Assembly: GCA_001899205.1 (NCBI GenBank)
Contig: MKVL01000024.1
Coordinates: 1 to 45,840 of the forward strand
Reading direction: 5' to 3'
Source: Mesorhizobium sp. 65-26
GTDB lineage: Bacteria > Pseudomonadota > Alphaproteobacteria > Rhizobiales > Rhizobiaceae
DNA length: 45,840 bases
Of this stretch, positions 14,578 through 36,678 are shown piece after piece; positions within the stretch are counted from its first letter, which is position 1, and the number at the start of each line of letters is the position of its first letter. The position numbers and the translations under genes were made by a program. The notes under the pieces are model-generated. The model did not search any database. It was not told where the DNA came from and saw nothing but the letters and a program-made list of their open reading frames with translations.

Positions 14578-16092
14578 CTACGCCTGCACGTCGACAATGC
14601 CCATCATGCCAAGCTGCTCGTGCTCGAGGATGTGGCAATGATACATCCTCGGACCCGGTCGTTCCTGGCGCAGCAGGAGCCGGACCGTCTCACCGCGCGC
14701 CACGTTGATGGTGTCTTTCCATGCGAGATAGGGCGGCTTCGCGACTTTACCGTTGCGCTCGTGCTCAATCACCTGGAACTGCGTGCCGTGAACATGGAAG
14801 GGATGGTCCATGTCGGCCTGGTTGACGATCTCCCAAAGCTCGGTCTCGCCAACTTTCGCGACAATGTCAACGCGCGCCATGTCGAAGGCCTTGCCGTTGA
14901 TCAGGAAGCCCATTTGCATATCGGTGGCGGTCATGGTCATGGTTTCAGTGAACACCAGGCGTCGGCTGACGGCAGGGGTGCCGAACGGAGCGATCGGCCG
15001 CAGCCGCCCCGGCAGCGGCGGCGCTGCTTCCGCTGGCGCCTCGGAGACATCGACCGTCAGCAGCGTCAGGCCCGCGTCGGCGGGACGGCCGGCGCCCATC
15101 CAGCCGCGGTCATAGTCAAGAGTGTACAGCGTGACGGGACCGGGCTTGTCGAAAGACACGACAAGTTCAAGACGCTCCGCCGGGCTGAGCAGAATGTCCT
15201 CTGCCGCCACCGGCGCCTCCAGCAGGCCGCCGTCACTGCCGATGATCGCCGTTGGCGCGCCATCGAAGGCGAGCTTCAGGAAGCGCGCATTGGTGGCGTT
15301 GTAGAGTCTCAGCCTCCGCTTCGCGCCCAATCCCACCGACAGTCTTGGATTCTTCTGGCCGTTGACCAGCACATGGTCGCCGACACGGCCGTTCATCAGG
15401 TCGGTCATTGTGTTGCCGGGCATGGTGCCGTCAGCGGCAAGCCGCAGGTCCGTGAATACCAGCACCGTGTCGCCGTATTCTGCCGGAATGGGATCGGCCT
15501 TCGCTTTGACCACGAAGGCGCCGGCGAGACCGCGATAGACCTGTTCGGCCGTCTTTCCGTGAGGATGGGGGTGGTACCAGTAGGAGCCGGCCGAGCCCTC
15601 CGGCAGTTCGAAGGCGTAGACGCGGTTCGAGCCCGCCGTTACCGGGTCCATCGGATTGCCGTCCTGGTCGGCTGGCACCGGCATGCCGTGCCAGTGGATG
15701 GTGCTCTCTTCCTCGCCGATCCGGTTGGCGAAGGTGATCTCGACACGGTCGCCCTCAAAGCACTGAATCAGCGGACCGGGGCTCGAGCCGTTATAGGCGA
15801 GGATCGGTGTATCCAACCCTTCCGCAAAACGCGCTGTGGCGGGTTGCGCGGCTAGGGTCGCCTTGAACCGGCCGGACGCGTTGGCCTCGTTGGCAAGCAG
15901 CGGGAGTTCGCGCAACGCCTCACCCTCGGGCAGCGTTACGGCGCCTTTCGACATGGCGCCCATGTCGTGGCCGCCCATATCCATGCCGGGCATGGAATCC
16001 ATGTTCGACATGTCGTCCATTTTCATCTGCGCCAGCGCCTTGGAGCTCACAAGAGCGGCCAGTCCTGCCGCCAGAAATTCGCGTCGATGCAT
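14578..16092 (-). CDS. Multicopper oxidase, CueO-like, Tat-exported
   Basis: I start at ATG 16092 (AGGAGA about 8 bases upstream), giving 504 residues. A Tat signal (HRREFLAAG) is followed by a Met/His-rich stretch (MDDMSNMDSMPGMDMGGHDM) likely to bind Cu(I). The four copper-ligand blocks are present: HWHG, YHPHPHG, HPFHVHG and HCHILEH with a following Met. It should oxidise Cu(I) to Cu(II) in the periplasm using O2. It follows cueR by 46 bases on the same strand and is the first of three multicopper oxidases in the window. Confidence 0.93.
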   Translation of the reverse strand: MHRREFLAAGLAALVSSKALAQMKMDDMSNMDSMPGMDMGGHDMGAMSKGAVTLPEGEALRELPLLANEANASGRFKATLAAQPATARFAEGLDTPILAYNGSSPGPLIQCFEGDRVEITFANRIGEEESTIHWHGMPVPADQDGNPMDPVTAGSNRVYAFELPEGSAGSYWYHPHPHGKTAEQVYRGLAGAFVVKAKADPIPAEYGDTVLVFTDLRLAADGTMPGNTMTDLMNGRVGDHVLVNGQKNPRLSVGLGAKRRLRLYNATNARFLKLAFDGAPTAIIGSDGGLLEAPVAAEDILLSPAERLELVVSFDKPGPVTLYTLDYDRGWMGAGRPADAGLTLLTVDVSEAPAEAAPPLPGRLRPIAPFGTPAVSRRLVFTETMTMTATDMQMGFLINGKAFDMARVDIVAKVGETELWEIVNQADMDHPFHVHGTQFQVIEHERNGKVAKPPYLAWKDTINVARGETVRLLLRQERPGPRMYHCHILEHEQLGMMGIVDVQA

Positions 16093-16138
16093 ATGTCGTC
16101 TCCTGGGTCGAAGGTTGGCGGTCTCGGCGTCGAATGTC

Positions 16139-16606
16139 TCAGAAGGCGTGGCGATGCCTGGGCGCGTCGCCAACGCCGCGTTGCCGGCGCTTCAAGGCCT
16201 TTGCTGGTCCGGCGTCGTGACCGTGCGAGAGGTCCTCGATGATTGGGCAATGCGGCCGATCGTCCCCCTGACAGTGCTCCGCCAGATGACGCAAAGTCTT
16301 CGACATGTCGCGGAGTTCGCGCATCTTCCGCTCGAGTTCCGCGACATGTTCCATGGCGATGCGCTTGACATCGGCACTGGCACGTGACCGGTCGCCCCAA
16401 AGCGCCAGCAGATTGGCCATCTGGTTCACTGAAAAGCCGAGATCCCGGGCACGCCGAATGAAGCGAAGGGCGTGAACGTCGCTTTCCGAATAAACCCGAT
16501 AGCCGGCGCCGGTTCGTGCAACGTTCGGGATCAGATCAATCGATTCATAGTAACGAATCATCTTCGCAGACACGCCCGACGCCGCTGCCGCTTCACCAAT
16601 GTTCAT
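16139..16606 (-). CDS. cueR: CueR/HmrR, copper-responsive MerR-family regulator
   Basis: A 155-residue MerR-type activator: N-terminal winged HTH (MNIGEAAAASGVSAKMIRYY), a dimerisation helix and a metal loop. The residues that define Cu(I)/Ag(I)/Au(I) sensors are in register with E. coli CueR: Ser77, Cys112 and Cys120 (CQGDDRPHC). It should bind the two dyads between copA and copZ and underwind their long spacers when copper is bound. It lies 79 bases downstream of copA. The C-terminus is about 20 residues longer than E. coli CueR, ending in a basic and His-rich tail (GHDAG..., RHRHAF). Confidence 0.95.
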   Translation of the reverse strand: MNIGEAAAASGVSAKMIRYYESIDLIPNVARTGAGYRVYSESDVHALRFIRRARDLGFSVNQMANLLALWGDRSRASADVKRIAMEHVAELERKMRELRDMSKTLRHLAEHCQGDDRPHCPIIEDLSHGHDAGPAKALKRRQRGVGDAPRHRHAF

Positions 16607-16685: not shown

Positions 16686-19226
16686 TCATATCACCAACGC
16701 CTCTTCGGGCACCTGCTTCGACTGTGATCTATCGTCGATCGGAGCGCGAAAGCGCCTCAGGCGCAACGCGTTGGTCAGCACAAAAACACTGGACAGCGCC
16801 ATGGCGCCGGCGGCGAGCATCGGGGAAAGGAGCGTCCCGTAGAATGGGTAGAGCGCGCCGGCGGCAATCGGTATGAGTGCGACGTTATAGGCAAAGGCCC
16901 AGAACAGATTCTGGCCGATGTTGCGGATCGTAGCCTTGGAGAGTGCAATCGCATTGGCCACGCCGCGAAGATCGCCCGACATCAGGACGACGTCGGCGCT
17001 TTCGATGGCAATGTCCGTGCCCGTTCCGATCGCGATGCCGACATCGGCGGCGGCCAGCGCCGGCGCATCGTTGATGCCATCGCCAACAAAGGCAACTCGG
17101 AAACCGTCTTGGCCAAGTCGCTTGACTGCCTCGACCTTGCCGTCGGGAAGCACCTCGGCGACGATTTCATCGATACCGATGCGCCGTCCGATCGCCTCGG
17201 CCGTGCGACGGTTGTCGCCGGTCACCATGGCGACTCGGAGACCAAGCGCGTGCAACGCCTCTATCGCCTTTGACGTTGAAGCCTTGATCGGATCGGCAAC
17301 TGCGACGATCGCGGCGAGCTTGCCATCTATGGCAGCATAGAGAGGGGTTTTGCCCTCGTCTGCAAGACGGCCGGCTGCCGAGGCAAACGCAGAGATGTCC
17401 AGACCAAGCCGGGTCATCAAACGATCGGCGCCGACTTCGACCTTGCGATCTTCAACGGTCGCACTTGCGCCGAAGCCGGGAACGGCATCGAAGTTCTTGA
17501 CATCGGCGAGCACAAGGCCGCGATGTTCAGCGGCCCGCACGATCGCCTCCGCCACCGGATGTTCGGAACGAGCCTCGACGGAGCCGACAAGCCTCAAGAC
17601 ATCGGCTTCGGCAAATCCGTCCGACACCACGAAGTCGGTGAGTTCGGGCCGGCCCTCGGTTAGCGTACCGGTCTTGTCGAGCGCGATAACCTTGGCGTCA
17701 CGCAGCGTCTGCAGTGCATCGCCTTTACGGAACAGCGCGCCCAGCTCGGCCGCGCGGCCGGTACCCACCATGATCGAGGTAGGCGTGGCGAGACCCATGG
17801 CGCAGGGGCAGGCAATGATCAGAACTGCAACCGCGTTGACCAGCGCGAAGGAAAGCGCTGGCTCAGGCCCAAGGAAAAGCCAGACCGCGAAGGTCAGCAA
17901 AGCAGCCGCGATAACGGCCGGCACGAACCATGCCGTCACTTTGTCCACAAGCGCCTGGATCGGCAGCTTCGCGCCCTGGGCAGCCTCGACCATGCGAATA
18001 ATCTGTGCAAGCAGCGTCGCCGAACCGACCTTGGTGGCACGAAAGGAAAAGCTGCCAGTCTTGTTGATGGTGCCGCCCACGACTTCCGCATCGATGCCTT
18101 TGGCGACCGGAAGCGGTTCGCCTGTCATCATGGATTCGTCAACGAAGGACGATCCTTCGACGATCTCGCCGTCAACCGCGATCTTCTCACCGGGGCGCAC
18201 CACAACCATATCGCCTACCCGAACCTCGGCGACTGGCACTTCGACGGTGACTCCATCCTTGACGACCCGCGCAGTCTTAGGCTGAAGGCCGACGAGTTTC
18301 TTGATCGCGTCGCTGGTCCGGCCTTTGGCCCTCGCTTCGAGGGTACGGCCGAGCAGGATGAGTGTGACGATGACGGCTGCCGCTTCGTAGTAGACGTTGG
18401 CAGTGCCCGCCGGGAGGGCATAGGGAAAGAAAGTCGCGATGACCGAATAAGCCCAGGCGGCGCCCGAGCCGAGCGCGACAAGCGCGTTCATATCCGGCGC
18501 GCGCTTGAGCAGCGCCGGCACTCCCTTCTGGAAGAAGCGAAGGCCGGGGCCGAACAGGACGATCGTGGTGAGAACGAATTGCGTGCGCCAGTTCCACTCG
18601 CCGAGCGTCATCATCACCCAATGGTGGAACGCAGGTACGAGATGGGAGCCCATTTCGAGAACAAGGACAGGCAAGGTCAGCAGCGCCGCCAGCGCGAGCG
18701 AACGGCCGAGCACGCGGATCTCGGCGGCGCGCCCGTCGCGCTCGCGGTCCTCTCGCGCATCCGGGAAGATCTGACGCGCCTCGTAGCCTGCTGAGCCCAC
18801 CGCGCTCACAACCGCTGCGGCCTCGACCGCACCCGCGACGATCTGGACGCTGGCTCGCTCCGTTGCCAGATTGACGCTGGCTTCGGTCACGCCGGGCACA
18901 TTCTTGAGCGCCTTCTCAAGGCGCGCGACGCAGGAGGCGCAGGTCATGCCCTCGATTGCAAATTCGATTGAGTCCGTACGCGTTTGGTAGCCGACAGCCG
19001 ATACCGCCGCCACAACGGGAGCAAGGTCCGGCTTGCCGGCAAAGATCACTTCAGCACGTTCGGCCGCCAGATTGACTGATGAAGAGACGACTTCAGGCAC
19101 AGCGGCGATCGCCTTTTCCACCCGTCGCACGCAGGATGCGCATGTCATGCCTTCGATGCCGAGCTGAACCGTGGAACTATAATTTGAAACGGATCCCGCT
19201 GCTTCGTTGCGAGTGATGGCGTTCAT
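16686..19226 (-). CDS. copA: CopA, Cu(I)-exporting P1B-1 ATPase
   Basis: 846 residues. Two N-terminal heavy-metal-associated domains carry GMTCASC (Cys29/Cys32 and Cys96/Cys99). Eight membrane helices follow, with the ion-pathway motif Cys473-Pro-Cys475 (ACPCAMG). Catalytic motifs: TGE at 368-370, the phosphorylated Asp517 in DKTGT, and [10 protein letters not shown] in the hinge. It pumps Cu(I) from cytosol to periplasm. It is first in the unit copA-cueR-oxidase-yqaA. A CueR-type promoter lies 34-64 bases before the ATG, divergent from the copZ promoter. Confidence 0.96.
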
Positions 19227-19259
19227 GTTTCCGCAACTCCATTTTAGTCGTTGCAGGAA

Positions 19260-19290
19260 CAGATAAAGGTTCCAGTGATGGGAAGGTCAA
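19260..19290 (-). promoter_or_regulatory. CueR-type promoter of copA
   Basis: On the minus strand: -35 TTGACC (19290-19285), a 19-base spacer and -10 TATCTG (19265-19260). The spacer holds an imperfect dyad (ACCTTCC ... GGAACC). A 19-base spacer is the mark of MerR-family promoters that need activation. Confidence 0.8.
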
Positions 19291-19341
19291 GAGGAAAATT
19301 TGTGTCACGGCTATCCGGTCGGCTGAACCCAAGAACAGCTC

Positions 19342-19372
19342 TTGACCTTCCCACGATGGGAGGCCCCATACC
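19342..19372 (+). promoter_or_regulatory. CueR-type promoter of copZ
   Basis: -35 TTGACC (19342-19347), a 19-base spacer and a weak -10 CATACC (19367-19372). The spacer contains the dyad CTTCCCA-cga-TGGGAGG, closely related to the copA operator. The two operators face away from each other about 57 bases apart. Confidence 0.75.
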
Positions 19373-19404
19373 GAGTGGGCCAGCACTGAAAAGGAGAAAC
19401 TGCA

Positions 19405-19608
19405 ATGCTGAAACTGAGGGTTCCGGATATGAGCTGCGGCCATTGCGCCAGCACGATCGAAAAGGCCGTTAAGAGCATTGACCCGACCGCGCGGGTCGCG
19501 ATTGACCTCGGGTCATCAACGGTGGCCATCGAAACCAAGGCGAATGAAGCGGCGATCTGCGATGTCATCAGATCCGCCGGCTACGACAACGAAGAATTGG
19601 CCGCTTGA
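19405..19608 (+). CDS. copZ: CopZ-like copper chaperone (HMA domain)
   Basis: A 67-residue soluble heavy-metal-associated domain with the metal site MSCGHC (Cys12 and Cys15) and the expected beta-alpha-beta pattern. It carries Cu(I) in the cytosol and delivers it to CopA. AAGGAG lies just upstream of the ATG. It is the first gene of the plus-strand arm, controlled by its own CueR-type promoter and followed by the DUF4396-oxidase fusion. Confidence 0.92.
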   Translation: MLKLRVPDMSCGHCASTIEKAVKSIDPTARVAIDLGSSTVAIETKANEAAICDVIRSAGYDNEELAA

Positions 19609-19722
19609 ACAATTCGAACGCGGTCGACGCGGATCATAAATGTGTCGGCCGCGTTTGTTACATCGGTTATATCGATAACTGTGCCGCCCGATCGCGTGAG
19701 GCGGGAGTTCGAGGGCGGACAC

Positions 19723-21690
19723 ATGCTCATTCAACCGATCGACTATTTTCTCGCATTCTGGTTCGCGATAGCTGCTGCCTCCACGCTATATGTCGGCTTC
19801 GACCAGTACCGAAACAATCCCGAGCCGGTGGTGATGAAGTGGGGTTTCATCCTGGTGACCCTCTATATGGGTCCGCTCGGTCTGCTGCTTTATGTGCTTG
19901 CCGACAAGGAGCCGCGTCCCGGCGAGCACGAAGCATTCACCAGGCCGCTCTGGAAGCAGGGCGTCGGCTCGACCATTCACTGCGTCGCCGGCGACGCCAC
20001 CGGCATCATCCTCGCCGCCGTCATCACCGCGACGCTCGGCCTGCCGATGTGGCTCGATCTCATCGTCGAATATCTGGCTGGCTTCGCGTTCGGCCTGTTC
20101 ATATTCCAGTCGTTGTTCATGAAATCGATGATGGGCGGCACCTATTGGGAGAATGTGAGGAAGAGCTTCCTGCCCGAATTCGTCTCGATGAACTTCATGA
20201 TGGCCGGCATGGCGCCGGTCATGAGTTTCCTGATGATGGGTCGCGACATGCGCGCGATGGAGCCGACGGAGCTTTTGTTCTGGGGCGTGATGTCGATCGG
20301 CGTCATCGCCGGGTTCACGCTTGCCTATCCCGCCAATGTCTGGCTGGTCGCGCGCAAGCTGAAGCATGGGCTGATGACGCAACGCCCGCAGGCCGTTAAA
20401 CCCGATCAGGAGACAAGGCACGCGCATGACGGTGCATCCGACATGGCGGAAGAAGGCCATGCCGGACATACCGGGAAGGCCGCGCCTGCGAAGGCACAGG
20501 CGAGGGCTTCTCATGCCGCCCACCCCGCGCAACAAGGAGGCCATTCATCTCACGCGGCCCATGGGAGCGGCGGCCACCGAATGGAGACGGACGCCACGAC
20601 GCCTCAGATTGCTTCGCTCAGTGTGGTTTCCCTGATTGCGTTGGCGATCGGCATGATGGCGCCGGCGAACTGGCTGAACCTGACGCTGTCGGCCCGCGAG
20701 GTCGGCGGCGCCATTATGCCCCCCGGCATGATCATGGACCGCGACACGCCCGCCGCAGCTATGCGCGACATGGCGGCGGTTGATCCTCGGCTGGTGAGTT
20801 TCAAGGCTGATCCCGCGGCACAGGGAGGCGCTGTCCTCGAACCGCGAATAGAGAACGGCGTCAAAGTTTTCGATCTCGAGGCTTCGGTTATCCGCTGGTC
20901 GATTCTGCCTGGGGTGGAGGTCGAGGCCTTTGCCTACAACAAACAGGTTCCCGGTCCGACGCTGCGCGTTACCCAAGGTGATCGCGTTCGCATCAACGTC
21001 ACCAATAGGCTGCCCGAAAGCACAACCGTGCACTGGCACGGCCTTGACGTGCCGAACGCGATGGATGGTCCAGCCTACGTCACACAGAAGCCGATCGAGC
21101 CCGGTGAGACTTTTTCCTACGAATACACCGTTGAACAGTCCGGTACATATTTCTACCACACCCATGACCACGTCGACCGTCAGCAGGCGCTCGGCCTCTA
21201 CGGCGCTCTGATCATCGACCCGAAAAATCCGGCCGACGCTATCACCGCCGACCTGGAATACACCGTTCAACTTCAGGAATGGCTCAAACGGGAAGGACTG
21301 ACTTTTCCGTCCATGCCGATGGACGGCGGCTTCCCTAATTTCTTCACCATCAACGGCAAGTCTTACCCGGCGACGGAGACGATCAACATGAAGGTGGGTC
21401 AGCTGCTCAAGATCCGTTTCGTGGGCTCCAACACCACCGCCATCCATCCGATGCATATTCACGGCGGGCCGTTCCAGGTCGTCGCCGTAGACGGCGCGAC
21501 GCTGCCCCAGACCGCACGGTATACGGCCGACACTGTCAATGTTGGCCCGGGGCAGAGGTTCGACGTCCTGTGGCGGGCGCTTCGGCCAGGCAAGTGGCTA
21601 TTGCATTGCCACATCCCGCATCACACGACGAACAACAATGTTGAGGAGAAGGGCGGCGGTGGGCTCACCATGGTCATAGATGTCAATTAG
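19723..21690 (+). CDS. Fusion of a DUF4396 membrane domain with a multicopper oxidase
   Basis: I start at ATG 19723 (a G-rich GAGGGCGG upstream), giving 655 residues. The first 230 residues form a DUF4396-like domain of about five helices, with an unusually Met-rich helix (MNFMMAGMAPVMSFLMMG). A roughly 60-residue linker is full of His and Ala (HAHDG, EEGHAGHTG, SHAAHPAQQGGHSSHAAHG). A sixth helix (SVVSLIALAIGMM) then leads into a complete two-ended multicopper oxidase domain with HWHG, YHTHDH, HPMHIHG and HCHIPHH. By topology the oxidase is probably periplasmic and the His linker cytoplasmic. It could tie copper uptake or binding to oxidation at one membrane protein. Confidence 0.88.
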   Translation: MLIQPIDYFLAFWFAIAAASTLYVGFDQYRNNPEPVVMKWGFILVTLYMGPLGLLLYVLADKEPRPGEHEAFTRPLWKQGVGSTIHCVAGDATGIILAAVITATLGLPMWLDLIVEYLAGFAFGLFIFQSLFMKSMMGGTYWENVRKSFLPEFVSMNFMMAGMAPVMSFLMMGRDMRAMEPTELLFWGVMSIGVIAGFTLAYPANVWLVARKLKHGLMTQRPQAVKPDQETRHAHDGASDMAEEGHAGHTGKAAPAKAQARASHAAHPAQQGGHSSHAAHGSGGHRMETDATTPQIASLSVVSLIALAIGMMAPANWLNLTLSAREVGGAIMPPGMIMDRDTPAAAMRDMAAVDPRLVSFKADPAAQGGAVLEPRIENGVKVFDLEASVIRWSILPGVEVEAFAYNKQVPGPTLRVTQGDRVRINVTNRLPESTTVHWHGLDVPNAMDGPAYVTQKPIEPGETFSYEYTVEQSGTYFYHTHDHVDRQQALGLYGALIIDPKNPADAITADLEYTVQLQEWLKREGLTFPSMPMDGGFPNFFTINGKSYPATETINMKVGQLLKIRFVGSNTTAIHPMHIHGGPFQVVAVDGATLPQTARYTADTVNVGPGQRFDVLWRALRPGKWLLHCHIPHHTTNNNVEEKGGGGLTMVIDVN

Positions 21691-21712
21691 CGGCGGCCAA
21701 GGTCTCTGATCG

Positions 21713-22657
21713 ATGCTTCCAATCTCCGATGTTCCCGCCGATGCGGCCGATCTGCTCGACTGTCTGATTGTTGGGGGAGGGCCAGCCGGTTTGGCGGCGG
21801 CCATATATCTTGCTCGCTTCCATCTCTCGGTCCTAGTGGCCGATAGCGGCGAGAGTCGGGCTGACCTGATTCCGCTCACCCGTAACCTAGCAGGTTTTCC
21901 CGATGGAATTGCAGGATCCGAACTTCTCGGGCGCATCCGGGAGCAAGGAAGGCGCTACGGGGTACGCCATTGGGCTGGCAATGTGGTCTCCTTGCAGGGA
22001 GGGTTTGGCAGGTTTGTGGCTCAAGCACGCGAAGGTATATTTCAAGCGCGCACCGTGCTGATGACAACGGGCGTCTTCAACCGGAGACCGAATATGCCTG
22101 CCAATGTCCACGCGGAGGCTCTGTCACGCGGGCTATTGCGCTATTGTCCGATTTGCGATGGCTATGAGGTGACCGATAGCGCGGTCGCGGTGATAGGAAC
22201 CAGCGAACACGGAACGAACGAAGCGGAGTTCTTGCGCAGTTACACCGCCGATGTGACGTTGATCGCACCGACTGGCGACCATGAACTTGACGCATCGCAA
22301 AGGTCGCGACTCGAGAACGGCGCTATTCAAGCGGTTAACGGTCCCTGTCTCGATTTTGAACTGATGCAGGACGGCATCGTGATCGCGACACCGACCGGCC
22401 GCCGCTTGTTCGCAACGATCTATGCAGCGTTAGGGTCCGATGTCCGATCTGAAATTGCAGCTGCGATGGACGCGGAAGTATCGAGCGATGGATGTCTTAT
22501 AGTCGATAAACACCAGAGAACCTCGGTAGCGGGTCTATATGCGGCGGGCGACGTGGTGCGTGGGCTTGATCAGCTTTCCTATGCAATGGGACAGGGCGCC
22601 GCCGCCGCCGTCGCAATCCGAAACGACCTAGCTCGCTCGACTCCGTTGCGGCGGTAG
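21713..22657 (+). CDS. Thioredoxin-reductase-like FAD/NAD(P)H oxidoreductase
   Basis: 314 residues of the TrxB fold: FAD-binding GGGPAG (21-26), a redox pair Cys145-Pro-Ile-Cys148 (CPICDGYE), an NAD(P)-binding segment (AVAVIGTSEHG, atypical, with T-S in place of the third Gly of GxGxxG), and the C-terminal FAD motif (GLYAAGDVVRGLDQ). It should reduce thioredoxin or a similar thiol partner in the cytosol. It lies 22 bases after the DUF4396-oxidase fusion, so it belongs to the copZ unit and is likely copper-induced. The altered dinucleotide motif leaves cofactor preference open. Confidence 0.88.
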   Translation: MLPISDVPADAADLLDCLIVGGGPAGLAAAIYLARFHLSVLVADSGESRADLIPLTRNLAGFPDGIAGSELLGRIREQGRRYGVRHWAGNVVSLQGGFGRFVAQAREGIFQARTVLMTTGVFNRRPNMPANVHAEALSRGLLRYCPICDGYEVTDSAVAVIGTSEHGTNEAEFLRSYTADVTLIAPTGDHELDASQRSRLENGAIQAVNGPCLDFELMQDGIVIATPTGRRLFATIYAALGSDVRSEIAAAMDAEVSSDGCLIVDKHQRTSVAGLYAAGDVVRGLDQLSYAMGQGAAAAVAIRNDLARSTPLRR

Positions 22658-28311: not shown

Positions 28312-31300
28312 TCATTCGGCAGCAAGGTCGAACATCGCAGGCTCCGTGAGCGCAACCTCGCCGATCGTAGATGCGATGCTCTTCGGCAACCGCCAACCCT
28401 TGACCAACCCATAGATCGCGGGGATCACCACAAGGGTCAGCAGGGTGGACGAGATCATGCCACCGATCATCGGCACGGCGATGCGCTGCATCACTTCCGA
28501 CCCGGTGCCTGTGCTCCAGAGGATCGGGATCAGACCGGCCATGATGGCAACGACAGTCATCATCTTCGGCCGGACGCGCTCCACCGCGCCAAGCAAGATC
28601 GCCTCATGGAGATCTGCCCGGACGAACGGCTGTTTGTGTGCGTCCCGGTCAGCTTTCACTTCGGCCATGGCCTGCTCCAGATAGATCAGCATGACGACAC
28701 CGGTCTCCGCGGCGACGCCGGCGAGCGCGATGAAGCCAACCGCGACCGCCACCGACATGTTGAAGCCGAGCCACCACATCAGCCAGATTCCGCCGATAAG
28801 GGCAAACGGCAAGGACAGCATGACAATCAACGTCTCGGTGAGCGCGCGGAAGTTGAGATAGAGCAGCAGGAAGATGATGAGCAGCGTGACGGGCACGACG
28901 ATCTTCATCCGCGCCGCGGCCCGCTCCAGATACTCGAACTGCCCGCTCCAGGCGACCGAATAGCCGGGCGGCAGCTTCACCGTCGCCGCGACGGCCTTCT
29001 GGGCGTCGGCGACATAGCCACCCAGATCCCGACCGTTGATGTCGACGAAGATGTAGGTCGCGAGCTGGCCATTCTCAGTGCGGATCGAGGTCGCGCCGCG
29101 CGTCAACTGGACTTTCGCCACTTCGCCAAGCGGAATGGCGCCGCCACCGGGCAACGGCACTTCGACGTCGGTAGCGATCGACTGAGGATTCGAGCGCAGA
29201 TCGCGGGGATAGCGGATATTGACCCCATAGCGCTCACGTCCCTCGACGGTTGTCGTCACGGTCTCGCCACCGAGCGCGGTCGCGATGACGTCCTGGACGG
29301 CGCCGACGGCAAGGCCGTACCGGCCGAGCGCCTCGCGATCCGGGACGATGTCGAGATAGTAGCCGCCGATCACCCGCTCGGCATAGGCACTCGACGTGCC
29401 CGGAACCGTTTTGAGGGCCGCTTCGATCTGGCGCGCGACCTGTTCCATCTGCGTCAGGTCTGTGCCGAAGACCTTGACGCCAACCGGCGTCCGGATGCCA
29501 GTCGAAAGCATGTCGATACGAGCTCGGATCGGCATGGTCCAGGCGTTGGAGACGCCTGGGAACTGCAGAGCCTTGTCCATCTCGTTCTTCAGGCTGTCGA
29601 TGGTGACACCGGTCCGCCACTGGCCCTTTGGTTTCAGGTTGATGATGGTCTCGAACATCTCGGTAGGAGCCGGGTCGGTCGCGGTCATCGCCCTCCCCGC
29701 TTTGCCATAGACCGAATCTACCTCTGGAAAGGACTTGATGATCCGATCCTGCATTTGCAGGAGTTCCGCCGCCTTGGTGACGGAGATTCCCGGCAGGGTC
29801 GTCGGCATGTACATCAGCGTGCCTTCGTTCAGGCTCGGCATAAATTCCGAACCGATCTGGCTCACCGGCCAGACGGAGCCGCCAAGCACCACAAGCGCGA
29901 GCACGATAGTGAGCGTCTTCGCCTTCAGCACGCCGCGAATGACAGGGCGGTAGATCCAGATCAGGAACCGGTTGATCGGGTTCTTGTGCTCCGGGATGAT
30001 ACGGCCGCGAACGAAGACCACCATCAAGGCTGGCACAAGCGTGACCGACAGGATCGCCGCGGCCGCCATGGAGAAGGTCTTGGTGAAGGCGAGAGGACCG
30101 AACATCCGGCCTTCCTGCGACTCCAGCGTAAAGATCGGCAGGAACGATACCGTTATGACGAGAAGGCTGAAGAACAGCGCCGGACCAACTTCGCTCGCTG
30201 CATCGATCAGAATCTGAACCCGCGGCTTGCCAGGAGGAGCACGCTCCAGATGCTTGTGAGCATTCTCGATCATGACAATCGCGGCGTCGATCATCGCGCC
30301 GACGGCGATGGCGATGCCGCCGAGGCTCATGATGTTGGAGCCGAGCCCGATGGCCTTCATGGCGCCGAACGCCATCAGGATGCCGACCGGCAGCATCAAG
30401 ATGGCGACGAGTGCGCTGCGCAGGTGAAGGAGGAACACGACGCAGACCAGGGCGACGATGACACTTTCCTCGAAGAGCGTGCCCTTCAACGTCTCGATCG
30501 CCGCTTCGATGAGATGCGAGCGGTCGTAGACCGGCACAATCTCGGCACCCTTGGGAAGGCTCCCGGCGATGTCGCCCAAGCGTTGCTTAACGTGCTCGAT
30601 CACAGTCAGAGCATTGGCCCCGAACCTCTGCAGGACTATGCCACTCGCGACCTCGCCTTCGCCGTTGAGTTCGGTAATGCCGCGCCGTTCGTCGGGACCA
30701 ATCTCGATCCTGGCGACGTCCTTGAGGCGTAGAGGCACGCCCTGGTCCGTTTTCAGGACGATGTCTTCGATATCGACCGTCGACTTGATGTAGCCGCGGC
30801 CACGCACCATGAACTCGAATTCGGATAGCTCCAGCGTGCGCCCGCCGACATCGCGATTGCTGGCGCGCACGGCGTCACGAACCATCGATAGCGATATGCC
30901 CTGGGCGCGCAGGCGCAACGGATCAACGACGATATTGTACTGCTTGACGAAGCCGCCGACGCTTGCGACCTCGGCGACACCCTCCGCCTTGGAGGCGGCG
31001 TATCGCACCACCCAGTCCTGCAGAGACCGCAGCTCGGCCAGCGTCATGTCCTTGGCGACGACGGCGTACTGATAGACCCAGCCGACGCCGGTCGCATCGG
31101 GACCGAGGCCCGGCGTGACGCCGGCCGGCAGGCGCTGCGCGGCAGCGTTGAGGTATTCGAGCACGCGGCTGCGCGCCCAATAGGGGTCCGTGCCGTCCTC
31201 GAAGATGACATAGACGAAGGAAACGCCGAAGAAGGAGAACCCCCGCACCACCTTGGACTTCGGCACCGTCAGCATTGCCGTCGTCAGGGGATAGGTGACC

Positions 31301-31491
31301 TGGTCCTCGACCACCTGCGGCGCCTGGCCGGGATACTCGGTGTAGACGATGACCTGGACGTCCGAAAGGTCTGGAATGGCGTCCAGCGGAAGCGTCTTCA
31401 GCGCGTAGGCTCCGGCGGCCACAGCGAAGGCTGTGGCGACAAAGATCAGGACGAGATTGCGTGCGGACCACGCGATGAGCCGGGCAATCAT
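28312..31491 (-). CDS. cusA: CusA-type Cu(I)/Ag(I) RND efflux pump
   Basis: 1059 residues with the RND layout (helix 1, a large periplasmic domain, helices 2-7, a second periplasmic domain, helices 8-12). The three methionines that define CusA substrate binding (Met573, Met623, Met672 in E. coli) are kept with the same spacing: YMPTTLPG, then +50 TEMFET, then +49 IDMLSTG. This favours Cu/Ag over the Zn/Co/Cd CzcA branch. It takes metal from the periplasm or CusF and expels it with CusB and a TolC-like duct. Its ATG overlaps the cusB stop by 4 bases (31488-31491). Confidence 0.95.
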   Translation of the reverse strand: MIARLIAWSARNLVLIFVATAFAVAAGAYALKTLPLDAIPDLSDVQVIVYTEYPGQAPQVVEDQVTYPLTTAMLTVPKSKVVRGFSFFGVSFVYVIFEDGTDPYWARSRVLEYLNAAAQRLPAGVTPGLGPDATGVGWVYQYAVVAKDMTLAELRSLQDWVVRYAASKAEGVAEVASVGGFVKQYNIVVDPLRLRAQGISLSMVRDAVRASNRDVGGRTLELSEFEFMVRGRGYIKSTVDIEDIVLKTDQGVPLRLKDVARIEIGPDERRGITELNGEGEVASGIVLQRFGANALTVIEHVKQRLGDIAGSLPKGAEIVPVYDRSHLIEAAIETLKGTLFEESVIVALVCVVFLLHLRSALVAILMLPVGILMAFGAMKAIGLGSNIMSLGGIAIAVGAMIDAAIVMIENAHKHLERAPPGKPRVQILIDAASEVGPALFFSLLVITVSFLPIFTLESQEGRMFGPLAFTKTFSMAAAAILSVTLVPALMVVFVRGRIIPEHKNPINRFLIWIYRPVIRGVLKAKTLTIVLALVVLGGSVWPVSQIGSEFMPSLNEGTLMYMPTTLPGISVTKAAELLQMQDRIIKSFPEVDSVYGKAGRAMTATDPAPTEMFETIINLKPKGQWRTGVTIDSLKNEMDKALQFPGVSNAWTMPIRARIDMLSTGIRTPVGVKVFGTDLTQMEQVARQIEAALKTVPGTSSAYAERVIGGYYLDIVPDREALGRYGLAVGAVQDVIATALGGETVTTTVEGRERYGVNIRYPRDLRSNPQSIATDVEVPLPGGGAIPLGEVAKVQLTRGATSIRTENGQLATYIFVDINGRDLGGYVADAQKAVAATVKLPPGYSVAWSGQFEYLERAAARMKIVVPVTLLIIFLLLYLNFRALTETLIVMLSLPFALIGGIWLMWWLGFNMSVAVAVGFIALAGVAAETGVVMLIYLEQAMAEVKADRDAHKQPFVRADLHEAILLGAVERVRPKMMTVVAIMAGLIPILWSTGTGSEVMQRIAVPMIGGMISSTLLTLVVIPAIYGLVKGWRLPKSIASTIGEVALTEPAMFDLAAE

Positions 31492-32933
31492 GGCGCGGTC
31501 TCCGAATTCGTCATGCCGCTCAGCGCAGCCTTCAGATTGCTTTCGGCATCGATCAGGAAATTCGCCGCGACCACGACGCGATCGCCGGCCGCAACGCCGT
31601 TGCGGATTTCGGTAAAGCCACCGCCCTGAAGGCCGATCTTGACCTCTCGCGGCTCGAACCGGCCCTCGCCCTTGTCCAGGATCACGACCTGCCGCGTGCC
31701 GGTGTCGATCACAGCGCTATCGGGGACGGCGACGACCGGAGCATTGCTGCCGCTGCCGATCTCAACATTGGCATACATGTCCGGCAGCAACAGACCGTCC
31801 GGATTGGGGATCTCGATCCGCACCTTGGTCGTGCGCGTTTCGTTGCTGACTTGAGGATAGATCAGCGCGACACGGCCGCTGAAAGTCCGGCCGGGCAGAC
31901 TTCGCACCCGGATGGTGGCGACGGCGCCGACCTTCACGGCTCCCAGCTCATATTCGGGGACGTCGGCGACGATCCAGACGGTCGAGACGTCAGCGAGGCG
32001 GAAGAGCACGTCGCCAGGCGACGCTTTCATGCCCTCGACGGCATTGCGCTCGAGGATCAGGCCATCGCGCGGGGCGGTCCAGGTGATGGAGGTCAGAACC
32101 TGACGGGTGCGGTCGATTGCGGTGATCACATCGGGTGGGACCGCAAGATTCTCAAGGCGCTGGCGTGCCCCGGCCGAAGCGCGGCCGCCTTCGTTCAGAT
32201 CTGTAAGATATTGGGCGCTCGCCGCTGCGATCTCTGCCGAATAGAGCCGCATCAGCGGCTCACCCTTTTTGATCCGATCGCCGGTGGTGACGTCCGCTAC
32301 CTTGTCGATGAAGGCATCGGAGCGTGTCGCGACCACTGTGATGCGCCGTTCATCAAGCTGTACGGTGCCGGGCACTCGCACTGGACGAACTATCACCTGC
32401 TCGGTGGCAACCTCCGATCGGACGCCGGTCCGCTGCAGTTTGCCTGTCGCGACTTTGACAGTCGAACCGTCGTCATCCTCGCCCGCGTAGACAGGGATGT
32501 AATCCATCCCCATCGAATCTTTCTTCGGCACCGGCGAGGTGTCGGGAAGGCCCATCGGATTGCGGTAGTACAAGATCCGCTTCGGTTCGCCGTTCGCAGG
32601 CGCAGCGGCAACGGTCGCAGCGGCTACCGGCGGCTTGTCCTCGAAGCTCAGGTCCTGCCCCGCTAGAACGGGCAGGAAGTCCCGTCCATCGGCGGTCTTC
32701 TTCGGAGTTGCCGCATAGGCTGGAAGGCCGTCCGGATCTCGGTAGTAGATCACGGGTCCGGTGGGCGCAGGGTTGGCGTTAGCCGGGACCGTCGCAGTGC
32801 CTTCCAGCCAGGCGACAGCTTGTAGCCACGCAGTGGCAGGCAGCGTGAGATTGCGATTCCCCGCCCAATAGCCTCCAGCCCCCGCCGCCAAAATGGCGAC
32901 GAGGGTGAGGCCAGTACGGCCTGCGCGGCTCAT
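31488..32933 (-). CDS. cusB: CusB-type periplasmic adaptor with heavy-metal-binding domain
   Basis: 481 residues: N-terminal membrane anchor (GLTLVAILAAGAGGYWAG), then two copies of the heavy-metal-binding repeat, the first degenerate (YYRDPDGLPAYAATPKKT) and the second complete (YYRNPMGLPDTSPVPKKD plus SMGMDYIPVY). The membrane-fusion core follows (hairpin, lipoyl and beta-barrel parts). It joins the inner-membrane pump to the outer-membrane channel and passes Cu(I)/Ag(I) to CusA. It overlaps both neighbours by 4 bases (ATGA), so the three genes are one transcript. Confidence 0.93.
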   Translation of the reverse strand: MSRAGRTGLTLVAILAAGAGGYWAGNRNLTLPATAWLQAVAWLEGTATVPANANPAPTGPVIYYRDPDGLPAYAATPKKTADGRDFLPVLAGQDLSFEDKPPVAAATVAAAPANGEPKRILYYRNPMGLPDTSPVPKKDSMGMDYIPVYAGEDDDGSTVKVATGKLQRTGVRSEVATEQVIVRPVRVPGTVQLDERRITVVATRSDAFIDKVADVTTGDRIKKGEPLMRLYSAEIAAASAQYLTDLNEGGRASAGARQRLENLAVPPDVITAIDRTRQVLTSITWTAPRDGLILERNAVEGMKASPGDVLFRLADVSTVWIVADVPEYELGAVKVGAVATIRVRSLPGRTFSGRVALIYPQVSNETRTTKVRIEIPNPDGLLLPDMYANVEIGSGSNAPVVAVPDSAVIDTGTRQVVILDKGEGRFEPREVKIGLQGGGFTEIRNGVAAGDRVVVAANFLIDAESNLKAALSGMTNSETAP

Positions 32934-33337
32934 GGCGTGGCCTTGAATTCGAGCTTGTTTTCGAGAGAGCCGGTTTCGCCCTGCACCTTGGCGCCGATCG
33001 ACAGGCGGTAGCCACCCGGCATCATCAGATTGGCCTTGAAGCGATAGATGCCCGGCTCAGTCGAGGGCAACGGCTCAATCGGCGACGTCATCATCTCCAT
33101 ACCATCCGGCGCCATGTCGACGCGCTGAGCAAAGATCACCGCGTTGGGCACGACCTTGCCGGACCGCTTGTCGACGAGACGAACGGCGACAATCGCGCCA
33201 TCTCCTTTCTTGATCGCGCTTTGGACGAGCTGGAACTCGTAATCGTCGATCCCAGCCTGGGCCATCGAAATGCCCCCACCGAAAGCAAGACCGATCATCG
33301 CCGCGGCTACGACGTGCTTCGCATTAAAAAAGTTCAT
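32930..33337 (-). CDS. FixH/YtkA-like exported protein of the Cus operon
   Basis: I start at ATG 33337, just before the signal peptide (AAAMIGLAFGGGISMAQA), giving 135 residues. The mature part is a beta-sandwich resembling the YtkA-like/FixH family (VAVRLVDKRSGKVVPNAVIF, then PGIYRFKANLMMPGGYRL), with Met-rich segments (DMAPDGMEMM, LMMPGG) fit for Cu(I). Its stop overlaps the cusB start by 4 bases. A periplasmic copper carrier or assembly factor for CusB/CusA is a reasonable inference. Confidence 0.75.
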   Translation of the reverse strand: MNFFNAKHVVAAAMIGLAFGGGISMAQAGIDDYEFQLVQSAIKKGDGAIVAVRLVDKRSGKVVPNAVIFAQRVDMAPDGMEMMTSPIEPLPSTEPGIYRFKANLMMPGGYRLSIGAKVQGETGSLENKLEFKATP

Positions 33338-33482
33338 TGTCAGATTTTCCCAAATTTCATCATTTGGCCGCGCGGAATGCACGGCAGGTTCGTGGCCAGG
33401 CTGTTGCCAAACCCACGGGCTCTCGCCGCAAGGCCGTCAGCCGCGCGGCGACAAACGGCCCCCGATGGAGCCGTTGATGAAT

Positions 33483-33878
33483 CTAGGTTCGTGGAGGTCT
33501 GGGAGGCGGCGGATTGGGCAGCAGATCGTGTCCGACGTCATTGCTCGGCGTGATCACGTCAGCTGCAGACAACCGGGTCAGCGTGATCGCCGCGGTCGTT
33601 GACGCGTTCGGGAAGCACTTGGCGACACATACGATCGCGAGAGGACAGGATTTCTGACAATCAGGTACTGACTGCCGCTGGTCCGAAGGGCATGGCATGC
33701 CGTCCGGCATGGATGCCATATCCGCCATCGTTGCCTTAGGATCGACAGCCATCGTCACCGCAGCAGACGGTGTGACCATCGGCGCGGTTAGAAGGCTCAC
33801 GACTGCCAGAATCGAGAGCAGGCGGGGGAACAAGGTCCAGAACTTCACGCCGGCTACATGGCATATGGTGCGGTGCAA
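33483..33878 (-). CDS. CopL-like small exported protein
   Basis: Up to 131 residues. The first codon of the frame is TTG (33878), with a GTG at 33848 also possible; neither is certain. A signal peptide (LLSILAVVSLLTAPMVTPSA) leads into a Met-rich segment (MADMASMPDGMPCPSD), a Cys cluster (CQKSCPLAIVCVAKC) and a Pro-rich tail (NPPPPRPPR). The plan equals that of the gene at 10147. Such proteins occur in copper loci and may bind Cu or tune expression. It is probably the promoter-proximal gene of the cusBA unit. Confidence 0.55.
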   Translation of the reverse strand: MHRTICHVAGVKFWTLFPRLLSILAVVSLLTAPMVTPSAAVTMAVDPKATMADMASMPDGMPCPSDQRQSVPDCQKSCPLAIVCVAKCFPNASTTAAITLTRLSAADVITPSNDVGHDLLPNPPPPRPPRT

Positions 33879-34033
33879 GAAAAGGTCCCCCGCCTCACAT
33901 TTCCGTCAGGTCATGCTGGCCAACAGCCTGGGTCGTAACTGGGTATGCGGGCGGCCCAGTGCTGGATCAGAGATTCGATTCGAACATCGATGCGAGAGAT
34001 GATAGCCTGGCTTTCGGTCCTCAGGAGGAGGAG

Positions 34034-34399
34034 ATGCGCGCCATTGCATTAGTTGCCGGCGTGTTGGTGGCTACGCCCTCGATGGCGGGGCAACTGATCT
34101 TTTACACTGCCACCTTCCCGGATGCGACATCTGTCCAACTCAGCGTCCTGAACAATAGTGTCTCGCAAGACCGCGGCCATGACTTTGATGTCGCTATCGG
34201 TCTGGTCGAGACAGACGCAAGCGGCGCCATCAGGTATGAAGATTCCGGCAGGCATCGTGCACAAGTTCGCTGTAATTATCCGGCGTATGTGAGCGTCGGC
34301 AGTCGAACGTATCCTATCGAAATGCCTCTGAGCCGCTCCTCACATAACGATTGGAAAGAAAATCTCTGGATGACATTCTGCGCGGCCCCGTCATCCTGA
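34034..34399 (+). CDS. Small secreted protein of unknown function inside the Cus locus
   Basis: ATG 34034 follows a very strong site (AGGAGGAGG), giving 121 residues. Signal peptide (MRAIALVAGVLVATPSMAG), then a probable beta-rich domain with two cysteines (VRCNYPAY and TFCAAPSS) that may form a disulfide. I do not recognise the family. It is the only plus-strand gene between 28312 and 38887 and splits the copper genes into two minus-strand blocks, so it may be a later insertion. It converges on CusF, with a strong hairpin in between (34437-34461). Confidence 0.55.
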   Translation: MRAIALVAGVLVATPSMAGQLIFYTATFPDATSVQLSVLNNSVSQDRGHDFDVAIGLVETDASGAIRYEDSGRHRAQVRCNYPAYVSVGSRTYPIEMPLSRSSHNDWKENLWMTFCAAPSS

Positions 34400-34436
34400 C
34401 TTCCGCACCTCACGGCATTGCCCGCTTTGACAGCGG

Positions 34437-34461
34437 CCGCGGGTCGAATTTCGACCCGCGG
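34437..34461. terminator. Hairpin between convergent genes, possible bidirectional terminator
   Basis: Perfect 11-bp stem CCGCGGGTCGA / TCGACCCGCGG with a loop of ATT. It lies between two convergent stops, which fits a terminator, but neither side has a proper T-run. Confidence 0.4.
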
Positions 34462-34476
34462 TCGCCGGGTGCCGGG

Positions 34477-34761
34477 TCACTTGATACTGGTGACCGTGAT
34501 GCGTCCGTTGACGCGGTCGGCTGTGAACTCGATCGCCTGACCCGATTTGACTTTCTTGAGCATGCCGTCCTCAGCGAGGACGAACACCATCGTCATCGCT
34601 GGCATGTCGAGATTCGTCAGCGGCTCATGTTTGATCGTCAGCTTTTTCTGTTTGGCGTCGACCTTTATGACTTCGCCTTTGATGTATTCCTGTGCAAGCG
34701 CGCTTCCGCCGATGGCGAGCGCGAGCGCGAGTGTCGAGAGTGCTTTTACCAATAGTGTCAT
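34477..34761 (-). CDS. cusF: CusF-like periplasmic copper chaperone with Trp-to-Met change
   Basis: 94 residues: signal peptide (ALSTLALALAIGGSALA) and an OB-fold CusF domain. The metal ligands align with E. coli CusF: His36 (KHEP), Met47 and Met49 (PAMTMVF). The Trp44 that caps Cu(I) by a cation-pi contact is replaced by Met (LDMPAMTM), which would give a more sulfur-rich site. It hands Cu(I) to CusB. It is the last gene of the upstream copper block, 26 bases after the cupredoxin. Confidence 0.9.
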   Translation of the reverse strand: MTLLVKALSTLALALAIGGSALAQEYIKGEVIKVDAKQKKLTIKHEPLTNLDMPAMTMVFVLAEDGMLKKVKSGQAIEFTADRVNGRITVTSIK

Positions 34762-34787
34762 AATTGCTTCCTTTCCGCTTTTCGAAC

Positions 34788-35276
34788 TCAGTTGGCGACG
34801 CTGATATCGCCCTTCATGCCGGAATCGTAGTGACCCGGGACCAGGCAGGCGAAGCCGAATTCGCCGGCATTGGCGAAGGTCCAGATGATCTCGCCTCGGG
34901 CGCCGGGGGCGAGCCGGATCGCGTTGGGATCGGCGTGCTCCATTTCAGGGAACTTCTCCATCAGCGCCTTGTGTTCCATGATCCCCTCATGGACGTCCAT
35001 GACGAATTCGTGGTCAACCTTCCCCTTGTTGACGAACTTGAGGCGGACGGTCTCGCCCTTCTTCACCTTGAGGACTGTCGGTTGGAACAACATCGTCCCA
35101 TCGTCCTTCTCCGACATCGAAATGTTGACCGTCCTTTTTGCCTTGGCAGGCTCGCCAGGGTTGCCGATCGGTATCTTGTCCGATTTGTCTCCATGTCCTC
35201 CGGCGTGGGTTCCACTGGCAAGAGCTGCTCCGGAACTGACCGCCATCAAAATGGCCGCTGCGATTATTCGTTTCAT
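34788..35276 (-). CDS. Cupredoxin-domain periplasmic copper protein
   Basis: 162 residues from ATG 35276: signal peptide, a Gly/His-rich start (GTHAGGHGDKSDK), then a plastocyanin-like domain. Likely type 1 copper ligands are His in VDHEFV and the C-terminal Cys-His-Met set (FACLVPGHYDSGM). Proteins like this (CopI-type cupredoxins) protect the periplasm from copper, perhaps by carrying electrons or copper to an oxidase. It lies between a multicopper oxidase and CusF in one unit. Confidence 0.88.
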   Translation of the reverse strand: MKRIIAAAILMAVSSGAALASGTHAGGHGDKSDKIPIGNPGEPAKAKRTVNISMSEKDDGTMLFQPTVLKVKKGETVRLKFVNKGKVDHEFVMDVHEGIMEHKALMEKFPEMEHADPNAIRLAPGARGEIIWTFANAGEFGFACLVPGHYDSGMKGDISVAN

Positions 35277-35319
35277 GCTGCACATTCTCTCACTGTTGAG
35301 GTTGAGGGATTTCGGTTTC

Positions 35320-36678
35320 TCATCCCTGTTTGCCGTGACCGCCGTTCACTGCCGGGGCCATCGTTTTTGCGTCGCCTGACTTTGTCGGAGCGGGAATTTC
35401 CCCCTTCCACTCGTAGGCCACGGTTCCCTCCGGGTGTTGGTACCAGCCGGGATCGGCGTAGTCGTTCGAGGCAAGGCCCTCGCGAACCTTTACGACCGAG
35501 AACATGGAGCCCATCTCGATCGGGCCGAATTGCCCCCAGCCATCCATCATCTTGACGGTGTTGTCGGGCAGCGGCATTTCCATCTCGCCCATGTCGGCCA
35601 TGCCGCGATTGCCCATCGGCATGTATTCGGGCTGAACTTTTCGGATCTTCTCAGCAACCTTTGTCTTGTCGACGCCGATGAAGGTGGGCACGTCGTGACC
35701 CATGGCGTTCATGGTGTGATGCGATTTATGGCAGTGGATTGCCCAGTCGCCCTCGTATTTGGCGTGGAACTCGTAGGCCCGCATGGCGCCGACGGGGATG
35801 TCGATCGACACTTCCGGCCAACGGGCCTCCGGGCGGACCCAGCCGCCATCGGTGCAGGTCACCTCGAAGTCGTAACCGTGCATGTGGATCGGGTGATTGG
35901 TCATTGTCAGATTGCCGACCCTGACGCGCACCTTGTCGTTCTTGGAAACAACCAGGGGGCTTACGCCCGGAAAAATGCGGCTGTTCCAGCACCACAGGTT
36001 GAAATCTGTCATCTCCATGACCTTCGGAACGTAGGATCCGGGTTCGATGTCATAGGCGTTCAGCAGGAAGACGAAGTCTCGGTTGACCCGCATGTACTTC
36101 GGGTCCTTAGGATGGATGACGAAGAAACCCATCATGCCCATGGCCATCTGGACCATCTCGTCGGCATGCGGGTGGTACATGAACGTCCCGCTCTTCACGA
36201 GATCGAACTCATAGACAAAGGTCTTGCCAGGCTGGATGTGGGGTTGGGTGAGACCGCCAACGCCGTCCATGCCGCTCGGCAGGATCATGCCGTGCCAGTG
36301 GATGGTGGTGTGCTCCGGAAGCCTGTTGGTCACGAAGATGCGGACCCTGTCACCCTCGACCGCCTCAATAGTCGGCCCGGGCGACTGGCCGTTGTAGCCC
36401 CAGAGATAGGCAGTCATGCCAGGCGCCATCTCGCGCTCAACCGGCTCGGCGACCAGATGGAACTCCTTCACGCCGTTGTTCATACGATGCGGCAGCGTCC
36501 AGCCGTTGAGCGTAACCACCGGCTGGTAGTCCGGCCCACTGCTCGGGAAGACCGGGGGCTGCATGTCGGGGGACTCCATGCTCGCTGCATCTGGCAACCC
36601 CATCGCGGACGTTTTGCTCCACGCCGTGGCGCCGGCGAGCAGGGCTCCCGCGCCCAGTAACTGACGTCTTGAAAGCAT
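35320..36678 (-). CDS. Multicopper oxidase (third copy)
   Basis: 452 residues from ATG 36678 (AAGGAG upstream). N-terminal export signal with twin Arg (SRRQLLGAGALLAG). All four copper-ligand blocks: HWHGMI, YHPHADE, HPIHMHGYDFE and HCHKSHH followed by Met-rich sequence (TMNAMGHD, MGNRGMADMGEMEM). The Met-rich C-terminal part suggests Cu(I) as substrate. It starts 16 bases after the TolC-like gene and is followed by the cupredoxin and CusF, so oxidation and efflux are encoded together. Confidence 0.92.
   Translation of the reverse strand: MLSRRQLLGAGALLAGATAWSKTSAMGLPDAASMESPDMQPPVFPSSGPDYQPVVTLNGWTLPHRMNNGVKEFHLVAEPVEREMAPGMTAYLWGYNGQSPGPTIEAVEGDRVRIFVTNRLPEHTTIHWHGMILPSGMDGVGGLTQPHIQPGKTFVYEFDLVKSGTFMYHPHADEMVQMAMGMMGFFVIHPKDPKYMRVNRDFVFLLNAYDIEPGSYVPKVMEMTDFNLWCWNSRIFPGVSPLVVSKNDKVRVRVGNLTMTNHPIHMHGYDFEVTCTDGGWVRPEARWPEVSIDIPVGAMRAYEFHAKYEGDWAIHCHKSHHTMNAMGHDVPTFIGVDKTKVAEKIRKVQPEYMPMGNRGMADMGEMEMPLPDNTVKMMDGWGQFGPIEMGSMFSVVKVREGLASNDYADPGWYQHPEGTVAYEWKGEIPAPTKSGDAKTMAPAVNGGHGKQG

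Follow-up and report, generated by a model that had tools for sequence, protein, structure and literature searches.

In the 45,840-nucleotide stretch of Mesorhizobium sp. 65-26 DNA analysed here (the window), one open reading frame (19723-21690, plus strand) joins a Met-rich membrane part with a DUF4396 domain, a His-rich linker and a seventh predicted membrane helix to a multicopper oxidase. That the product is a copper-induced, membrane-tethered cuprous oxidase with DUF4396 as Cu(I)-binding partner is a proposal that we regard as evenly balanced. It is supported by the complete oxidase motifs, the type B fold, the predicted topology, the CueR-type boxes and the copper genes in the neighbourhood.

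The fusion gene and its oxidase

The translated frame comprises 655 residues and contains no inner stop; an alternative in-frame GTG start at 19642 would give 682 residues. Pfam assigns DUF4396 (PF14342) to residues 77-214 (19951-20364; E-value 2.5e-40; 138.6 bits compared to a gathering cut-off of 27), Cu-oxidase_3 to residues 391-502 (8.7e-41) and Cu-oxidase_2 to residues 535-637 (9e-26), all above the curated cut-offs. A match to Cu-oxidase overlaps that to Cu-oxidase_2. Thus, the linkage of DUF4396 to a multicopper oxidase via a His-rich linker, which the first-pass annotation had read from the DNA, is borne out by an intact frame and by its domains. AlphaFold2 together with hydropathy gives helices over residues 5-210, which we read as six membrane helices. 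In the AlphaFold2 model, a single chain of moderate quality (pLDDT 74.4, pTM 0.63), these are followed by a low-confidence stretch (residues 228-284), a helix (293-316) and the beta-rich oxidase, with low-confidence loops in oxidase domain 2.

A sequencing or frame error joining two genes, the objection raised in the first-pass annotation, was rejected because the intact single frame recurs in other genomes. A profile search of genome contigs seeded with the DUF4396 alignment yielded at least 468 confirmed relatives, and in 70 of the best 80 loci DUF4396 and the oxidase share one intact frame; these 80 were chosen as nearest by similarity, and 70 of 80 is not a fraction of the whole family. 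According to the record titles, the loci with the fusion belong to Pseudomonadota, Acidobacteriota, Actinomycetota, Gemmatimonadota and Nitrospirota, so that the search for the same fusion elsewhere, suggested in the first-pass annotation, succeeded in several phyla. The other 10 loci are broken, partial, ended by a contig edge or atypical and were excluded from the linker, box and motif counts. Metagenome-assembled genomes (MAGs) make up many of the 80 loci, among them a Rokubacteria MAG (L092) with a broken copy.

Of the 61 genomes searched from the genus, at least 18, the source genome included, carry the fusion in one open frame, and it was not found in 40 other genomes of the same order. 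When 337 genomes were drawn evenly from the class, 16 had DUF4396 matches, namely three fusions (the source genome, L154 and L155), two near lone forms and 11 weak matches. Among 398 genomes of the phylum, 24 passed the DUF4396 family cut-off, three of them with fusions (L127-L129). In the plasmid collection, 28 records match 80% or more of the fusion query at a single place, a number that includes one-gene, adjacent two-gene and broken forms. Eighteen phage records match the query, none with coverage above 80%, and the five matches listed are confined to the oxidase part. Broken or interrupted copies were observed at L061, L068, L080, L092, L176 (S. meliloti pSymA), G033 and G058, and as a second fusion copy in G044.

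The oxidase consists exclusively of two cupredoxin domains. Domain 1 (Cu-oxidase_3, 20893-21228, plus strand) carries the copper ligands HWHG and HTH, and domain 2 (Cu-oxidase_2, 21325-21633, plus strand) carries HPMHIHG and HCHIPHH. In 71 fused sequences including the window, HWHG, the loose pattern [YF]HxH and HCHxxHH are each present 71 times and HxxHxHG 70 times. The matching His and Cys columns are invariant in an alignment of 40 fusions (39 of the 70 plus the window; L083 and near copies left out), with H575 retained in at least 90%. The best Foldseek matches are 2zwn_B (4e-26) and 3g5w_A, that is, a two-domain laccase fold. These two are also the closest solved structures by sequence, but they are soluble and carry HCH in domain 1 (type C arrangement). 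In the fusion, domain 1 has HTH without Cys, and the sole type-1 (T1) Cys is C629 in domain 2.

In the available part of PMC13151041, type B two-domain oxidases are described as trimers with T1 in the second domain and T1 sites facing a central tunnel. Judged from its sequence, the fusion oxidase is a type B two-domain multicopper oxidase, because its T1 Cys lies in domain 2 as that definition has it. By analogy to this class, a trimer with the trinuclear cluster at the interface would be expected. The type B enzymes SLAC and CjMCO share with the fusion the two cupredoxin domains, the T1 Cys in the second and the full ligand set, and CjMCO also has a His-rich region, which is N-terminal, as far as that part of the source describes them. 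In contrast to both, the fusion has six DUF4396 helices and a seventh as anchor, and its His-rich part is predicted to face the cytoplasm rather than the outside.

CueO and CopA (PcoA) are three-domain, soluble, periplasmic enzymes. They resemble the fusion in their copper setting and likely cuprous oxidase role, but the fusion scores far below both curated cut-offs (115.9 bits against 525 for the NCBIfam CueO equivalog, and 164 bits against 478.95 for the CopA copper-resistance oxidase TIGR01480).

Membrane part, linker and predicted topology

The six-helix membrane part (residues 1-221; 19723-20385, plus strand) contains 18 Met (8.1%). In 47 other ORFs from the fetched loci that have at least four hydrophobic segments, Met averages 2.5% and reaches 5.8% at most. 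Hence, the description of this domain as Met-rich in the first-pass annotation is justified. Helix 5 carries SMNFMMAGM (residues 155-163; 20185-20211, plus strand) with the spacing M156xxxM160xxM163, and helix 3 the conserved pair His86-Cys87 (19978-19983, plus strand). All 83 near relatives examined (70 fused, 8 near lone and 5 split proteins) carry the motif SMNxxMxxM, and none of 19 distant DUF4396 proteins does, a contrast that is partly expected since the near sets were gathered by similarity. The His-Cys pair is retained in 16 of the 19 distant proteins. Invariant in nine fused, split and lone relatives are H69, E70, H86, C87, D91, E116, M133, E152, M156, N157, M160, M163 and H215, the last also in at least 90% of 41 sequences.

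By eye, the distant protein L136:1492-2832 has an N-terminal extension with a CxxCH haem-binding motif, and in the distant members L123, L125, L133 and L137 a His-rich stretch lies before the HC motif, not at the C-terminal end. Together with the invariant H69, H86 and H215, the CxxCH of L136 could suggest that DUF4396 is a haem- or quinol-binding domain delivering electrons to the oxidase, which would make the fusion a small terminal oxidase. Haem and quinone families are absent from the Pfam matches, however, and the copper-type box and copper neighbours also argue against electron entry, which we consider highly improbable.

Foldseek gave 450 matches of DUF4396 to solved folds up to E 10, none with E <= 0.001, and query TM-scores are at most 0.35 among the 50 matches listed. 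A profile search of PDB sequences gave zero matches up to E 1. Consequently, a known transporter fold for DUF4396 was rejected.

Cu(I) may pass through the membrane to the oxidase. Three DUF4396 units could assemble into a pore for Cu(I) that contains a Met triad and through which CopZ-delivered Cu(I) would reach the oxidase tunnel, its oxidation pulling export; we regard this as unlikely. The invariance of SMNxxMxxM and HC within the helices of near relatives is in line with such a pore, but the missing transporter fold match is not. CTR1 is a homotrimer. CTR1/COPT proteins share with the fusion an MxxxM within a helix, and a Met of this MXXXM in TM2 is essential according to the available part of PMC4039008. 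Unlike the fusion, they have three helices, and a sequence or fold link to DUF4396 was not found: the CTR family is absent from the Pfam matches of the fusion, and no fold match reached E <= 0.001.

The genes flanking other DUF4396 members are mostly not copper genes, which speaks further against Cu(I) passage. For distant members, Pfam identified one copper gene (CopB beside L143) in 18 ORFs from 14 loci. For near lone members, no copper gene was found in 12 ORFs from 7 loci with flanks of about 1.5 kb; 20 of 40 flanking ORFs were Pfam-tested, 18 of distant members and two of the near lone L140, and the other near lone members contribute 10 ORFs from six loci. As an exception, the near lone L041 from a Sphingomonas plasmid sits within a copper cluster. 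A copper role for DUF4396 proteins in general is thus unsupported. Since these flanks give little copper link, a copper role of DUF4396 in the fusion is argued from its conservation and its oxidase partner.

The linker (residues 222-290; 20386-20592, plus strand), mostly of low confidence in the model, contains 10 His in 69 residues compared to 2.6% elsewhere in the fusion (binomial P 1e-5). Its His count ranges from 2 to 12 in 68 fusions and reaches 20 and 26 in two with a DUF2231 insert, and the five two-gene versions have two to five His (tail and head summed). Such variation argues against a relay for which the linker His would be needed. L023 also has a long linker.

Helix 7 (residues 293-316; 20599-20670, plus strand) is followed by a Met-rich segment (20716-20772, plus strand), in which M332, M336, M347 and M350 are invariant in the 40 aligned fusions and M338 is kept in at least 90%. 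Of 71 fused sequences, 59 show MxxGMxM at this position and 12 another spelling; a stricter Met pattern fits 35, and some Mesorhizobium sequences read MPQGMIM.

Averaged over the 40 sequences, loops 2-3, 4-5 and 6-7 together contain 15.6 Lys and Arg, compared to 2.9 for the N-terminus together with loops 1-2, 3-4 and 5-6. In two of 70 fusions (L083:6001-8478 and L106:6001-8565), DUF2231 is inserted within the linker. The insert has four hydrophobic segments, an even number, and therefore the linker ends stay on one side. Because of the charge bias, the AlphaFold2 helices and this parity, seven membrane crossings are predicted, with N-terminus and linker inside and the oxidase outside. The cytoplasmic linker and periplasmic oxidase of the first-pass annotation, which had named a location of both on the same side as the critical objection, are therefore retained by prediction on opposite sides of the membrane.

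Helix 7 is predicted to be the signal anchor of the oxidase. A twin-arginine motif is absent before this apparent Sec anchor, so that copper would be loaded outside. This would suit a protein in which DUF4396 and helix 7 anchor the oxidase and supply its copper cofactors, the substrate being Cu(I), Fe(II) or a phenol. The variable His content of the linker is compatible with this, as is Rhodobacter CutO, whose maturation requires cutF and the CopA pathway according to the available part of PMC8456105. In a plain anchor, however, so many polar residues and Met would hardly be expected to persist across phyla, and we consider this explanation rather unlikely.

Probable module exchange and split forms

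The DUF4396 part of the window fusion is 92-97% identical to those of five Mesorhizobium-type fusions (L048, L056, L054, L051 and L058), whereas the oxidases differ by 28-32% (68-72% identity); the oxidases of these five are mutually 87-93% identical. L044 is 96% identical to the window in both DUF4396 and oxidase, and a thioredoxin-reductase-like (TrxR-like) gene is common to both. On the DNA level, identity to L048, L054, L056 and L051 is 79-95% over 19705-20304, falls in the linker, and amounts to 78-82% in helix 7 (20605-20754) and 60-79% in the oxidase. A swap breakpoint would therefore lie between about 20300 and 20755. With groups named after the trees were seen, constraining the oxidases to the DUF4396 grouping cost 62.5 log units (p-AU 0.0001), and the reverse constraint of DUF4396 to the oxidase grouping was rejected more weakly (p 0.032).

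We infer that recombination joined the oxidase module and the TrxR-like gene (20300-22657) to a membrane part that was already in place. Rapid evolution within one oxidase lineage was considered less probable, since the TrxR-like gene accompanies the oxidase and the trees conflict. The divergence of the oxidase beside a nearly constant DUF4396 and the tree conflict also argue against a strictly co-adapted interface. A long path shared by DUF4396 and oxidase would not easily survive such a swap, unless the contact is the conserved helix 7 with the Met segment.

In five split systems (four from cyanobacteria, one from Deinococcus aetherius), the two modules are encoded by adjacent genes. The division falls inside the linker, and the oxidase protein begins with helix 7. 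Thus, these pairs resemble the fusion in the adjacent modules and the position of helix 7, but they consist of two polypeptides with few His in the loop. Lone DUF4396 proteins have, by eye, their own terminal helix following a His- or Met-rich loop. The split-pair oxidase of D. aetherius (L170:3764-5125) is an open frame of 454 residues missing from the gene table of the collection. In three of the four cyanobacterial pairs, on plasmids L171, L172 and L173, a gene annotated as glutathione reductase lies directly 5' of DUF4396.

In addition to the window and named extras, the trees included 28 of the 70 fusions. In the DUF4396 tree (45 rows), 32 fused proteins form a single clade (100/99), and the split and lone forms fall outside it, the lone rows on long branches of unsure placement. 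In the oxidase tree, the fused and split oxidases (37 rows) are separated from seven other two-domain oxidases with 100/100; the split oxidases nest within the fused ones, and a constraint of the fused ones to one clade was not rejected (p 0.227). Therefore, as judged from the trees, DUF4396 and the oxidase were paired no later than they were fused. Both the split versions and the swapped module speak against a tight shared path for Cu(I) through membrane part and oxidase.

Copper setting and proposed function

The fusion gene lies between a gene for a CopZ-like HMA copper chaperone with CGHC (19405-19608, plus strand) and one for the TrxR-like FAD enzyme with CPIC (21713-22657, plus strand). 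The gaps are 114 nt from the end of copZ and 22 nt to the TrxR-like start, and all three genes are on the same strand. Of the co-transcription stated in the first-pass annotation, the adjacency on one strand stands, and a single transcription unit is probable from this arrangement. Encoded on the minus strand are a CopA-type P1B ATPase with two CASC HMA domains and a CPC motif (16686-19226), a MerR-family regulator that is CueR-like by its setting (16139-16606) and a CueO-like multicopper oxidase (14578-16173; 278 bits to the CueO model, below the cut-off of 525). Further along, 28312-38152 (minus strand) encodes a Cus-like RND pump, a CusB-type membrane-fusion protein, an outer-membrane factor and a second multicopper oxidase (35320-36765, minus strand). 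Altogether, the window resembles a copper island.

Between copA and copZ (19227-19404) lie two putative CueR/HmrR-type boxes found by pattern matching. The one facing copA (19270-19290, minus strand) matches the search pattern fully, and the one facing copZ and the fusion (19342-19362, plus strand) has two mismatches. The published signals, with 19-bp spacers, are ACCTTCCC-(5)-TGGAAGGT for CueR and ACCTTCCAG-(3)-CTGGAAGG for HmrR, as given in the available part of PMC1526738. A loose box pattern matched four times in the whole window compared to a shuffle mean of 1.05, and 2 of 100 shuffles reached four. The exact pattern TTGACCTTCC-N7-GG occurs five times in the 6.84 Mb source genome compared to zero for the reversed control.

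Upstream of the fusions (either strand, up to 1500 nt, less in four of the 70 loci), a decamer with at most one mismatch was found in 20 of 70 compared to about 4.7 expected from shuffles; some of these matches serve a divergent gene or are no box, and the Mesorhizobium loci are not independent. The decamer is absent from the searched stretch of the other 50. In four of the 70 loci (L105, L106, L108 and L118), the fusion is preceded by the exact HmrR signal at a distance of 133-179 nt.

A copper setting was also evident beyond the window. BLAST against the window proteins alone detected window-like CopA, CopZ, CueR or the two other oxidases in flanks of up to 6 kb for 45 of the best 80 of at least 468 relatives. 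CopA was found at 18 of these 80 loci, CopZ at 12, CueR at nine, a CueO-like oxidase at 11, an oxidase like that at 35320-36765 at 23 and a TrxR-like gene at four. The searched copper genes are absent from 35 of the 80, some of which have short flanks.

This neighbourhood bears on the passage of Cu(I) through the membrane in two ways. CopZ, the proposed donor, is encoded next to the fusion, but the window already has CopA and a Cus-like RND set. The cytosol holds almost no free Cu(I), and a passive pore from there would need efficient handover. A specific form of this idea, in which a Met-lined pore of three DUF4396 units is aligned with the type B T1 tunnel and Cu(I) from CopZ is exported and oxidised without release, is in our view quite unlikely. 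Its structural basis is that type B T1 sites look onto the central tunnel, as described in the available part of PMC13151041. A precedent is provided by iron systems, in which yeast ferroxidase-permease pairs channel iron and ferroxidases aid export by ferroportin, as stated in the available part of PMC11817551. Fet3-Ftr1 and hephaestin-ferroportin are like the fusion in that a membrane-side oxidase is partnered with a permease, but they are separate proteins, handle iron and use different permease families.

For the preferred reading as a tethered cuprous oxidase, the box and the regulator gene suggest that CueR would sense Cu(I) and switch on copZ, the fusion and the TrxR-like gene. The protein would cross the membrane with six DUF4396 helices, expose the His-rich loop to the cytoplasm and carry the type B oxidase outside on helix 7. 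If the oxidase is a trimer with trinuclear copper sites between neighbouring chains, as its class suggests, three DUF4396 units would lie beneath it in each complex. Cu(I) would reach the outside face of the membrane via CopA and the Met-rich segment that follows helix 7. The oxidase would transfer electrons from Cu(I) to O2, yielding the less harmful Cu(II), a function suggested by CueO and the genetic setting. In view of its conservation, DUF4396 most likely holds or hands over Cu(I) via M156/M160/M163 and H86/C87. It may do something else, because near lone proteins with the same Met motif adjoin non-copper genes.

A published account of a DUF4396-oxidase fusion was not found in titles and abstract starts, a literature sample with few subscription papers and preprints, where DUF4396 itself receives passing mention in one paper. 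For this domain of unknown function, the fusion or adjacency to an oxidase and the copper-type boxes provide a testable lead in the near subfamily. Which parts can do without a covalent link or co-adaptation is suggested by the split versions and the apparent exchange of the oxidase. As far as its sequence and setting indicate, the fusion probably helps to disarm excess copper at the membrane. If the membrane part does move Cu(I), the fusion would be a one-chain bacterial counterpart of the iron ferroxidase-permease pairs.
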